27,432 bases of DNA from a virus, in IMG/VR virus record IMGVR_UViG_3300012211_000010, positions 1-27,432 of that record; one strand, 5' to 3'. Every line of letters begins with the position of its first letter. Position 1 is the stretch's first letter. Position numbers and translations under genes: made by a program. This document shows, piece by piece, positions 1,376 to 15,411 of this stretch. Below the pieces are notes generated by a model. It saw only the letters and a list, made by a program, of their open reading frames with translations. It searched no databases and had not been told where the DNA came from.

Positions 1376-1492
1376 GTGGCTGACCTTGGCGGTACGCTGA
1401 TTATTAAGCGACCCCAGCAGCCCGACAATCCTCCTGTGGAATTCAGGGTTAGCATCCGTCATAACCGGAGCATTCTAGAAGGGAGCCCATAA
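1376..1492 (+). CDS. Possible 38-residue small protein
   Basis: A GTG-started frame begins 6 bases after the fibre gene stop and ends in TAA inside the loop of the hairpin at 1477-1501. The product begins MADLGGTLIIKRPQQP and is otherwise unrecognised: no membrane segment, no cysteines. The ribosome site is weak (AAGAGA overlapping the previous stop). It fills a 150-base interval that otherwise has no gene in a densely packed genome, which is the main reason to list it. It could equally be untranslated leader for the HNH gene. Confidence 0.35.
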   Translation: MADLGGTLIIKRPQQPDNPPVEFRVSIRHNRSILEGSP

Positions 1493-1501
1493 CTCCCTTC
1501 T
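1477..1501 (+). promoter_or_regulatory. Upstream hairpin of a tandem pair before the HNH gene
   Basis: A perfect 9-bp stem, AGAAGGGAG (1477-1485) with CTCCCTTCT (1493-1501), closes a 7-base loop holding the TAA of the possible small ORF. It sits directly against a second hairpin, sharing base 1501. No T-tract follows, so a mRNA-level role (translation control or 3' end protection) fits better than a classical terminator. Confidence 0.5.
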
Positions 1502-1523
1502 CGATTCTTTATGGGAGAATCGA
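1501..1523 (+). promoter_or_regulatory. Hairpin covering the HNH gene ribosome binding site
   Basis: TCGATTCT (1501-1508) pairs perfectly with AGAATCGA (1516-1523) across a 7-base loop. The likely Shine-Dalgarno GGGAG (1513-1517) lies partly in the loop and partly in the 3' arm, and the stem ends one base before the ATG at 1525. Folding should therefore reduce initiation. Hairpins that hide ribosome sites are known for T4 homing endonuclease genes; the same role here is inferred. Confidence 0.5.
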
Positions 1524-9963: not shown

Positions 9964-10344
9964 ATGTCAGAACCTTTGTTATATGACGAGTTGACCCCGC
10001 AGCAACGGCAGATGCTGGCAGCATTATCAAAGCATCCCGGCTGGGAAGTGCTCGTTATGGTTTTTCATAAGTCTTGCGACATGGTCAATGCACGATTAGT
10101 CAGTATTAATCCTATGTCTGAAGGCTATGAAAAGAAGTTAGCGTTTGCTCATCTGCAGTCCCGGACTGTGAATGAGTTTTGTTCGGCTGTCAAGAAGTCT
10201 GTTGAATTTCATTCGCAACTAGAATCTATTCAAAGAAAAGTAACAGAAGAAAGTATTCGTAGAGAACTTCAAGACGCCGAGTCTCAATTGCGTGCGGGAA
10301 ATCCAATCCCAACGTATCTGGTTGAATCCAATTCAAAGGAATAG
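9964..10344 (+). CDS. Small helical protein between portal and scaffold
   Basis: CGGAG precedes the ATG. The 126-residue product is mostly helical and polar, with two cysteines, no signal peptide and no membrane span. The N-terminus (TPQQRQMLAALSKHPGWEVL) and the charged middle (KKSVEFHSQLESIQRKVTEE) suggest a helical bundle. Its place between portal and scaffold suggests a head assembly or small connector part, but I do not recognise a family. The end overlaps the ribosome site region (AAGGAATAG) of the next gene. Confidence 0.6.
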   Translation: MSEPLLYDELTPQQRQMLAALSKHPGWEVLVMVFHKSCDMVNARLVSINPMSEGYEKKLAFAHLQSRTVNEFCSAVKKSVEFHSQLESIQRKVTEESIRRELQDAESQLRAGNPIPTYLVESNSKE

Positions 10345-12795: not shown

Positions 12796-12825
12796 GTTTG
12801 GGGAGGTCTGCCGACCTCCCCGAAC
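12796..12825 (+). terminator. Strong hairpin after the capsid gene
   Basis: A 13-bp stem, GTTTGGGGAGGTC (12796-12808) with GACCTCCCCGAAC (12813-12825), has a single T-G wobble and a TGCC tetraloop. It starts 8 bases after the capsid stop. There is no T-tract, so it may be a partial terminator or a 3' stabiliser that raises capsid mRNA level over downstream genes. Such hairpins after capsid genes are common in phages. Confidence 0.75.
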
Positions 12826-13548: not shown

Positions 13549-14220
13549 ATGGCTGAATTTACTCAGCAGGACCTGGAGAAGTTATTTCAGGCAGTTACAA
13601 AGTTGGCTCAGACTGTTGCCGCCAAAGAGACGGAAGCAACTGAGAAAGTAGATGAGACTTCGGCTTTATTAGAACTTGTTCTAAAGCGCGAAGCTCGTTT
13701 GGAAGAAAAAGAAAAAAGTGCTCAGGTTGCTTTTGCGCAACGCGATAAACAGCGTCGTGCGAACGCAAGAGAGTTCGACGCAAATTTGAAGGCGATTCAG
13801 AGCCGATGTAAGCATAAGAAGGGTACTGGCAAGAAATGGGGAGGAATGGCAGATGGTCGAAACGATTACGCCATTATCCATCACGTCTTTGTCGATCACT
13901 CGGAAATGCGAATGTGTCAGATTTGCAAAATGAAGTGGCACCCAGGCGATACACATACCAGTCTTGTTAGAGACGGTAGAATTTTTCCGAACCACACAAA
14001 ATTGTCTTGGGAAGAGGTAGCTGCTTTCCCTACAACCAATACAATGACAGCATCGGAAGCTCCTATCGCTCCCGCAACCATGGAACGCGATGTTGCCACA
14101 AAGTTGTTAGATTTGATGAAGGATAAGGACGTTAGCAAGGTGATGGCTTTCTTGAAGTCTCCAGAAGGTCAACATTTTACGAACGATCAGTCCATTCCGA
14201 CAACAGAAGTAGTCGCTTAA
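13549..14220 (+). CDS. Coiled-coil protein with a zinc-finger-like motif
   Basis: GAGGTGAG precedes the ATG. The 223-residue product has a long N-terminal coiled coil (about 5-85, charged heptads such as LKREARLEEKEKSAQ). It then has a probable zinc site formed by C87-x-H89 and C123-x2-C126, with the surrounding text MRMCQICKMKWHPGD. Proteins with the same CxH...CxxC plus KW..GD pattern are frequent phage hypotheticals. The C-terminal 60 residues are helical and polar. It lies between capsid and tail adaptor genes, so a virion or assembly role is plausible; a DNA-binding role cannot be excluded. Confidence 0.62.
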   Translation: MAEFTQQDLEKLFQAVTKLAQTVAAKETEATEKVDETSALLELVLKREARLEEKEKSAQVAFAQRDKQRRANAREFDANLKAIQSRCKHKKGTGKKWGGMADGRNDYAIIHHVFVDHSEMRMCQICKMKWHPGDTHTSLVRDGRIFPNHTKLSWEEVAAFPTTNTMTASEAPIAPATMERDVATKLLDLMKDKDVSKVMAFLKSPEGQHFTNDQSIPTTEVVA

Positions 14221-14232
14221 GCATTGTACTGG

Positions 14233-14275
14233 CCCGGCAGGTTGATCTCGATAGGCCGGGAATTTCTATCGAGAT
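14233..14275 (+). promoter_or_regulatory. Candidate RNA pseudoknot before the adaptor gene
   Basis: CCCGGC (14233-14238) pairs with GCCGGG (14255-14260), and ATCTCGATAG (14245-14254) pairs with CTATCGAGAT (14266-14275). The order of the four arms is that of an H-type pseudoknot: 6-bp and 10-bp stems, connecting loops of 6, 0 and 5 bases, stems directly abutting. If both cannot form together they are two competing hairpins. The ribosome site AAGGAAGGAA begins at 14285, ten bases downstream, so the fold could influence translation of the gene at 14296, or act as a terminator-like element. Confidence 0.5.
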
Positions 14276-14295
14276 ATTTCTTTTAAGGAAGGAAT

Positions 14296-15411
14296 ATGGC
14301 GTCCTCCCTCTCCACAGTAAAGCTTCAAGACATTGTAGATATCGCACAAACTTTCGGACATCTGGCTCCGCAGTTGAACGTCCCTCAAGCCACCGCACAA
14401 CCAGCCCTTACAATAGCCAATGATGTTTTTTCAGCCATCTGCGCTATTCCTTTTCCTTGGAAGTGGAATGAACTTAAGGTTCCTCCTTTTTATACAAACT
14501 CATTTCAACAGGATTATGCTGGAATCTATTTGCCTGCGGCTTCAGGCGGCGACGCTACTCTAGGTAACGTCGGCCAATCCATTATGAATTTGTCGTGGTT
14601 AGAGCGTGGTATCTGCGTAAACGTTACAAATACGGCTGAGCCTAAGCCATGGAAACAGGTTGAGGTGGGCCGATCCCTACCACAACAAACTGGCTCAATG
14701 TATCTCAACACTAATTTTAATGCCCTTATGTATTTGGTGAATTGGTATCCGAACTACATGCTATATTATGGAACCTGGGGACAAGGTAACTCTGGAAACA
14801 GTACTTTCGGAAACAATCCCGTGTCTGGTGCAGTCTACATAAATCCGTTATCAGTAGCGAATTCAATGCCGTCGAATCCTATTACTCAGATTCGGGATGC
14901 AAACGGGAATTTTTTGGTCATCACAGGATATGGAACTGAGGGTACAACCGCCCCAGTTGCTCCTGCTTCTTCAGCAGCCGGGGTCGTTGCGACTCCAGGC
15001 GCTGGTGCTACAACCCAATGGACCGTTGTGGACCCAAGCGGTTGGGGTTTTAGAATTGTGCCCGCTCCCGCTCAGACAGGCGTGACATGGCAGTTCGTTC
15101 TTGTGGGGCAGCAGGCCCCCGTTCGGTTTACGTCGTTAGCACAGACGTTGGCACCGTTGCCAGATGAGTACGAACCTTTTTTCCGTCAAGGTTTTATCGC
15201 CCAGTGTTATCGATATGCTCCTGAAGCTAAGATTAAAGCTCAGTTCGCTCAGGAATGGGGATTATGGTTGAAGGGGTTGATGGAACTTCGTGCTAAGGAT
15301 GCCCGAGAGCAGGAAGAATATAGTTTTGTGCCGGGACGAGGGATCACGGGCTGGGGCACAGGACAAGCTCAACGTCTTAACCCACAGTGGCCTTTTCCTC
15401 CAACAAGGTAA
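14296..15411 (+). CDS. Adaptor-like tail protein (long copy)
   Basis: AAGGAAGGAA precedes the ATG. The 371-residue product shares scattered but ordered features with the shorter protein at 15776: a helix leading to IPFPWKWNEL (51-60), then FQQDY (70-74), then LSWLERG (99-105), and late LPDEYEPFFRQGF (288-300) followed by helices. Between about 150 and 285 it has an inserted Gly/Ser/Pro-rich, beta-type segment. This pattern and the place before the nozzle gene suggest a head-tail adaptor, functionally like T7 gp11, or a partner of one. No enzymatic motif is visible. Relation to the second copy is my reading and would need a profile comparison. Confidence 0.55.
   Translation: MASSLSTVKLQDIVDIAQTFGHLAPQLNVPQATAQPALTIANDVFSAICAIPFPWKWNELKVPPFYTNSFQQDYAGIYLPAASGGDATLGNVGQSIMNLSWLERGICVNVTNTAEPKPWKQVEVGRSLPQQTGSMYLNTNFNALMYLVNWYPNYMLYYGTWGQGNSGNSTFGNNPVSGAVYINPLSVANSMPSNPITQIRDANGNFLVITGYGTEGTTAPVAPASSAAGVVATPGAGATTQWTVVDPSGWGFRIVPAPAQTGVTWQFVLVGQQAPVRFTSLAQTLAPLPDEYEPFFRQGFIAQCYRYAPEAKIKAQFAQEWGLWLKGLMELRAKDAREQEEYSFVPGRGITGWGTGQAQRLNPQWPFPPTR

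Follow-up and report, generated by a model that had tools for sequence, protein, structure and literature searches.

A candidate pseudoknotted, terminator-like element at the 3' end of a capsid gene block in a phage family

What might a perfect H-type pseudoknot do in the short gap between two genes of a virus? This question is raised by a single IMG/VR contig of 27,432 bases, analysed over its whole length and here called the window, in which two interleaved stems, S1 and S2, occupy positions 14233-14275 between the genes p223 and p371. The features needed below are the following, with the arms and loops of the pseudoknot taken from an exact-stem scan.

From 5561: terminase gene
From 7817: portal gene
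Listed between portal and major head protein genes: gene of 455 amino acids
11757-12788, + strand: major head protein (MCP) gene, presumed first gene of the block closed by the pseudoknot
Between the MCP and p223 genes: p218 gene
13549-14220, + strand: p223 gene, with the pseudoknot at its 3' end
14233-14238, + strand: 5' arm of S1, CCCGGC
14239-14244, + strand: loop L1, AGGTTG, which would cross S2
14245-14254, + strand: 5' arm of S2, ATCTCGATAG
14255-14260, + strand: 3' arm of S1, GCCGGG, inside the loop of S2
14261-14265, + strand: loop L3, AATTT, which would cross S1
14266-14275, + strand: 3' arm of S2, CTATCGAGAT
14276-14284, + strand: T-rich tail ATTTCTTTT following S2, as in an intrinsic terminator
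14285-14294, + strand: Shine-Dalgarno-like AAGGAAGGAA of p371
14296-15411, + strand: p371 gene (371 amino acids), the next structural gene

Further large genes lie downstream of p371 in the window. Neither p223 nor p371 gave a PHROG or Pfam match, and a tblastn search with p223 remained without a match. Among 17 homologous p223 sequences the residues C88, H90, C121 and C124 (L018 numbering) are invariant, in the arrangement C..H and C..C, and the family is perhaps a zinc-binding protein. A scan of IMG/VR based on the MCP yielded 76 loci. No near-identical phage was found in GenBank, where the only phage with a related MCP (35.5%) is Tunturiibacter phage Tunturi_3. Its host is an acidobacterium, and a gene annotated as 'structural protein' occupies the place of p371. 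Judged from this sole isolate relative, Acidobacteriota are the probable hosts of the family; few studies have dealt with the phages of this group. A search of bacterial and archaeal genomes returned nothing for p223 and one contig for the MCP. This contig, L159 (CABMCB010000038.1), is filed as an uncultured archaeon and holds an MCP with 76% identity to that of the window in the best segment; it is probably a phage contig that was binned wrongly. Several relatives show peculiarities of the same gene region. L018 has a tRNA gene (10188-10259) that separates its p218 and p223 homologues. The MCP gene is interrupted in L025 (2386-2625), and similarly in L056, L057, L065 and L082, by stretches measuring at least about 240 nt. 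The interruption in L025 looks like an intron because it contains in-frame stops; no match to these interruptions was found in Rfam. The p371 gene, too, is split in many relatives.

Re-reading of the sequence at 14233-14275 confirmed two interleaved perfect stems of 6 bp (S1) and 10 bp (S2) with loops of 6, 0 and 5 nt, and hence the short-looped, interleaved geometry of an H-type pseudoknot. From general knowledge, loops of 6 nt across 10 bp (L1) and of 5 nt across 6 bp (L3) look feasible. S2 begins 24 nt past the p223 stop. Two distances given in the initial annotation had to be corrected: the gap between the genes is 75 nt (14221-14295) instead of 76, and AAGGAAGGAA, placed there 10 bases away, starts at 14285, 9 nt past S2. 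The idea of two mutually exclusive hairpins acting as a switch fails, since S1 and S2 share no arm. The nearest relative (L014) does not keep the nested alternative that the window could form inside S1 (GUUG/CGAU). Across the window there were no Rfam matches, and the best local match reached 14.6 bits versus 50 needed. At least 60 repeat families exist in the window, and none of the 20 largest lies at the pseudoknot.

When the complete window was scanned by exact matching for H-type pseudoknots with perfect stems, this element came first, with a summed stacking of -32.7 kcal/mol. The runners-up, both intergenic, reach -28.3 (1477-1515) and -25.3 (584-613), and the fourth, at -19.8, follows after a clear gap. 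The third strongest consists of a GGGGCGG hairpin with a T-rich tail and a 4-bp S1, and ends gene 8-571. The rarity of such an arrangement by chance is borne out by 400 whole-window dinucleotide shuffles (27.4 kb), of which the best reaches -31.1 and none -32.6. Over 59 deduplicated loci (728 kb), elements at or below -24 are found 30 times in 34 kb of non-coding sequence versus 18 times in 694 kb of coding sequence. A rough estimate from Turner stacks and a fixed Dirks-Pierce-style penalty of 9.6 gives about -22.9 for the pseudoknot of the window; the best nested fold reaches -16.5 and S2 on its own -12.1, placing the knot about 6 kcal/mol ahead of any nested fold there.

In the nearest relative, a single contig represented by L003 and L014 (88% identity in p371, 78% in p223), S1 is unchanged, the outer pair of S2 is G-C instead of A-T, and L3 is shortened from 5 to 4 nt. 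Five more distant contigs (L036, L072, L055, L018 and L016), designated class (a), carry a pseudoknot of 39-40 nt with the same layout directly 3' of the p223 homologue: TCCGG, an L1 of 7-8 nt starting with CGG, a 9-bp S2, CCGGA, TTTA or CCTA, and the second arm of S2. Of 70 cells in these five, 98.6% are paired, with three S2 pairs changed on both sides and a single mispaired cell, T.T, in L016. The covariation score is 0.250 versus at most 0.050 in slid-partner controls. A U-G pair in L055 and a G-U pair in L018 fit RNA of the + strand only, as they become A.C on the opposite strand; the exact scanner is blind to G-U pairs and thus understates these two loci. With the window and L014 added by hand, eight of the nine S2 pairs vary, and the outer core pair of S1 is T-A in five sequences and C-G in two. 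Since S1 is invariant inside class (a), its covariation rests on this one between-group pair. The compensating changes which the initial annotation expected in both stems are thus strong in S2 and confined to one pair in S1. An S1 of 5-6 G+C-rich pairs is retained in all seven.

A pattern with S1 and L3 fixed and S2 left free retrieved four IMG/VR contigs, all of them family members with the element at the p223 end, and S2 pairs in 4/4. The window's own S1, used as a pattern, returned 47 contigs: the known relatives L092 and L121, and 45 further ones that served only as control phages. A covariance model of class (a) including S2 puts position 14233 of the window first in 27 kb, yet with an E-value of 0.64, and did not report L014 at an E limit of 5. 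Over 88 loci (1.3 Mb, L014 included) only members of class (a) fall below E 1, and a model of S1 only found neither the window element nor L014. Place and layout make it likely that the window knot and class (a) are of common descent, a kinship unproven by score. The pseudoknot is very likely a real, selected RNA structure.

Loss of a stem in relatives with the same gene order had been named as evidence against a conserved pseudoknot, and here the picture is mixed. Both stems are present in L003, whereas the other lineages in which p371 directly follows p223 have a weaker S1 or none: L015 and L025 hold an interleaved element with an S1 of only 3 bp, L004/L021 (one contig) a hairpin with a 3-bp S1, L024 a plain hairpin, and L006/L007 a gap of 1 nt and no element. 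Other designs are found at the same gene end. Class (b), in L010 and L017, reads CGGC-TT-TCCGGTGT-GCCG-AAA-ACACCGGA, and the knot of L015 and L025 is similar. L017 and L018 have the flank TTAGCGGACTGACGTAC in common, which is followed by different pseudoknots, of class (b) in the former and class (a) in the latter. Class (c), CCG-A-GGGGCGG-CGG...CCGCCCC with a 3-bp S1, occurs in many relatives; both arms of this stem have changed together in L082 (ACG...CGT), and in L056 the stem is disrupted. For designs with a 3-bp S1 (L015, class (c)) the rough energies give no real advantage of the knot. In Tunturi_3 a 6-bp hairpin precedes the counterpart of p371, and inspection by eye revealed no S1. A further sequence of this kind, AGGC-TTT-GCCGGTTGT-GCCT-CAAA-ACAACCGGC, lies between genes at about 3408-3440 of L193, where a TAG stands just upstream and GAGGAGG and ATG follow; L193 was the one contig retrieved with a pattern of class (b) type that does not match L015, and it was not fetched by any family protein.

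The position of the element is informative. In L010, L016, L017 and L018 about 1.0-2.6 kb separate p223 from p371, and the knot is found beside the p223 stop, mostly with a T-rich tail after it. Among distinct relatives' regions, a hairpin follows p223 in 37 of 42, and in 29 of 42 it has a T-rich tail. For the junction after p218 the numbers are 10 and 0 of 47, and after the MCP gene 38 and 8 of 51, many of the latter in inserted endonuclease cassettes. The window itself has a 9-bp hairpin, GGGGAGGTC/GACCTCCCC, without a T tail after its MCP gene (12800-12821). Five of the 42 post-p223 rows lack a hairpin by the exact test; L028 and L055 have an imperfect one and L075 none. In L079 the hairpin lies before the assumed p223 stop, which is probably misplaced, and the same probably holds for L033. 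L014 (GATTTCAG) and L016 (ATTTCGAG) have only a poor T-rich tail.

With its 10 bp, S2 places a stable hairpin at a gene end, as in a terminator; our terminator scan, which allows loops of at most 8, therefore reported only a 5-bp sub-hairpin (14246-14261). Against a terminator, the Shine-Dalgarno sequence of the downstream gene comes within about 10-20 nt of most listed copies, a short distance if transcription is to stop completely. One copy ends a different gene: on contig G003 (L172, 1768-1798) a knot of class (b) type, CCGC-TTCA-GGGGATGA-GCGG-AAA-TCATCCCC, has the tail ATTTTTCT and is followed from 1809 by a promoter-like TTGACA-17-TATAGT, as expected at the border of a transcription unit. 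In six nearly whole contigs knots at or below -24 are few and mostly of the gene-end or endonuclease-leader kinds; one of these contigs, G005, has none between genes.

Judged from the sequence, we hold with moderate confidence that the locus is a pseudoknotted, terminator-like 3'-end element which acts in + strand RNA and closes the block MCP-p218-p223. We infer the terminator role from the hairpin, the T-rich tail, the place and the promoter of the G003 copy. S2 would be the hairpin of this element, with its T-rich tail, and S1 would pair the loop of that hairpin with the segment just upstream, so that both stems could stack end to end. As RNA polymerase leaves p223, S1 may form first; S2 would close next and stack on S1. 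A hairpin that is otherwise rich in A+T might gain enough stability from this stacking for transcription to end or be attenuated there, and/or the message might be left with a knotted 3' end that resists exonucleases. The abundant capsid message would thereby be separated from the tail genes. More tentatively, the elements may represent a class of terminators whose loop is trapped by RNA lying upstream, with unrelated knot sequences swapped into one gene end in the course of evolution while the knot was kept (window and class (a), class (b), perhaps class (c)); we regard this wider reading as possible rather than probable.

An element serving only the stability or processing of the mRNA 3' end, which would block 3' to 5' exonucleases or mark where an RNase separates the capsid message from the tail message, with no termination involved, is unlikely, if by no means far-fetched. 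The copies with weak T tails (L014 and L016) retain both stems, and hairpins without such tails also stand after the MCP gene, as at 12800-12821 of the window, all of which would suit it. The T-rich tails of most post-p223 hairpins (29/42 regions) and the promoter-like sequence after the G003 copy point instead to the terminator-like element.

Does S1 then matter at all, or is S2 an ordinary hairpin and S1 a chance or inherited pairing without function? Plain hairpins fill the same place at the p223 end in L008, L045, L061, L063, L064, L077 and L081, and S1 covaries at one pair only. However, S1 is retained in every member of the set formed by the window, L014 and class (a), further S1 sequences are found repeatedly in the remaining classes, and flank swaps produce less S1-like pairing than is observed. 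Pairing of the hairpin loop with upstream RNA at or below -9 kcal/mol is seen in 7 of 37 post-p223 hairpins, versus 1.6 in flank swaps and 1.8 in dinucleotide shuffles, the seven rows amounting to only about four independent designs. At a looser limit of -5 there are 25 versus 15.2 and 14.3, and at -6.5 the count does not differ significantly from the shuffle control (9 versus 5.9; 7.6% of the shuffles are as high). No clear excess of such pairing was seen in a control set of 140 intergenic hairpins from 45 other phage loci. We rely on the post-p223 test because the strong-S1 rows of this control set include minus-strand mirror images of an endonuclease leader. On balance, a role for S2 only appears improbable.

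About equally improbable is a translational operator for p371, bound by a phage protein in the manner of T4 gene 32, which would match the translational control element suggested by the initial annotation. The element does lie just upstream of the p371 Shine-Dalgarno sequence, and gene 32 sets a precedent for a pseudoknot operator in phage mRNA (PMC3014915). But where other genes intervene, it stays with the p223 stop and does not remain upstream of the p371 start codon as a gene 32-like operator would; the same pseudoknot class precedes different downstream genes, and the Shine-Dalgarno sequence itself is outside the knot. Pseudoknots a few nucleotides past a site stimulate recoding in other systems, and in the window only 12 nt separate the TAA from the knot, with p223 and p371 in one frame; yet stop readthrough or frameshifting that joins the two is very improbable and largely refuted by the frame offset of 0 in the window versus 2 in L003, and is opposed as well by a second in-frame TAA (14284-14286), differing downstream genes among relatives and a variable distance from stop to knot.

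The same search geometry also detected a different element. The second strongest candidate of the window (1477-1515) is a leader before an Endonuclease_7 gene (1525-1965), which is found in many relatives as well (L070 3340, L062 2288, L076 2367, L024 4114, L055 3998), and its motif is present in L159 (9004-9046). It is built in the order S1, G, CCnnnAA, C, S1', a spacer with CTCT, TTnnnGG, AGAG and ATG, and precedes endonuclease-like genes (GIY-YIG, Endonuclease VII and others). The complement TTnnnGG overlaps the Shine-Dalgarno sequence and is often flanked by CTCT and AGAG, so that two hairpin loops can kiss. We found 46 candidates, a few of them false. For G-C-closed 7-nt loops starting with CC the complement lies within the next 26 nt in 42 of 43; among all 635 hairpins with such loop sizes 51 have a complement, versus 7.2 by swapping. 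Because the complement of the loop overlaps the Shine-Dalgarno sequence, the predicted kissing loop or pseudoknot can hide it. The leader of the window has no Rfam match, literature searches on homing endonucleases with a pseudoknot listed no such leader, and it may be a more novel element than the knot at the p223 end. After the MCP gene it forms part of a cassette of a sigma-70-like promoter, an inverted repeat between or over the boxes (TTGACACAGGTTGCAACTTGTGTTAAGAT type), the kissing leader and an endonuclease-like gene, as in the following loci and others:

L015, 9021-9109: post-MCP cassette
L020, 4935-5030: post-MCP cassette
L025, 2716-2804: post-MCP cassette
L055, 3957-4041: post-MCP cassette

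Palindromes of the TGTAGCTACA or TTGTACGTACAA type recur just upstream of the leader (L070 3340, L076 2367, L064 5267, L086 3303, L165 9842).

How does the p223-end element compare with known systems? Literature on pseudoknots with intrinsic termination or terminator hairpins in phages yielded papers on riboswitches, recoding and other subjects, and no phage pseudoknot-terminator was found among those listed; a term search of PMC11924767 gave no mention of terminators, introns or hairpins. Antitoxin RNAs of type III toxin-antitoxin systems (ToxI, CptI) have an H-type pseudoknot between the transcribed region and the downstream gene (PMC5086642). Such an RNA was considered and rejected: it would come with tandem repeats, a terminator and a toxin gene, whereas the element of the window is single copy, with no array there among the 20 largest repeat families (of at least 60 in all), there is no separate terminator before a toxin, and the neighbours are those of a capsid-tail block. 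Pseudoknotted riboswitches with a terminator platform, such as the fluoride type, reportedly have the pseudoknot near the terminator hairpin. In the window, unlike these, one hairpin serves as both and stands at the 3' end; no ligand core was recognised and Rfam gave no match. The mRNA of gene 32 in T4 and T2 contains an H-type pseudoknot with coaxially stacked stems (PMC3014915) and is alike in being a pseudoknot in phage mRNA. It lies upstream of the start codon that it regulates, whereas the knot of the window keeps to the 3' end of the gene that precedes it.

There is also a likeness to intrinsic (Rho-independent) terminators, in which a hairpin at a gene end is followed by a T-rich run; after p223 such a run is present in 29 of 42 regions and poor in L014 and L016. 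The place is comparable as well, since the element stands at the border of a gene block past the capsid gene, much as the T7 terminator comes after gene 10. If S1 tunes the ending of the capsid message, the pseudoknot would be part of the intrinsic terminator itself and not of a nearby riboswitch. This would be a compact way of setting capsid-to-tail expression. The relatives also provide a set of naturally occurring matched pairs with which to test how RNA polymerase responds to tertiary RNA structure in its exit channel. Two features set the element apart from ordinary intrinsic terminators: S2, the candidate terminator stem of the window, has G-C in only 4 of its 10 pairs, and the hairpin loop of 9-11 nt forms 5-6 bp with RNA lying upstream, so that the whole becomes an H-type pseudoknot.
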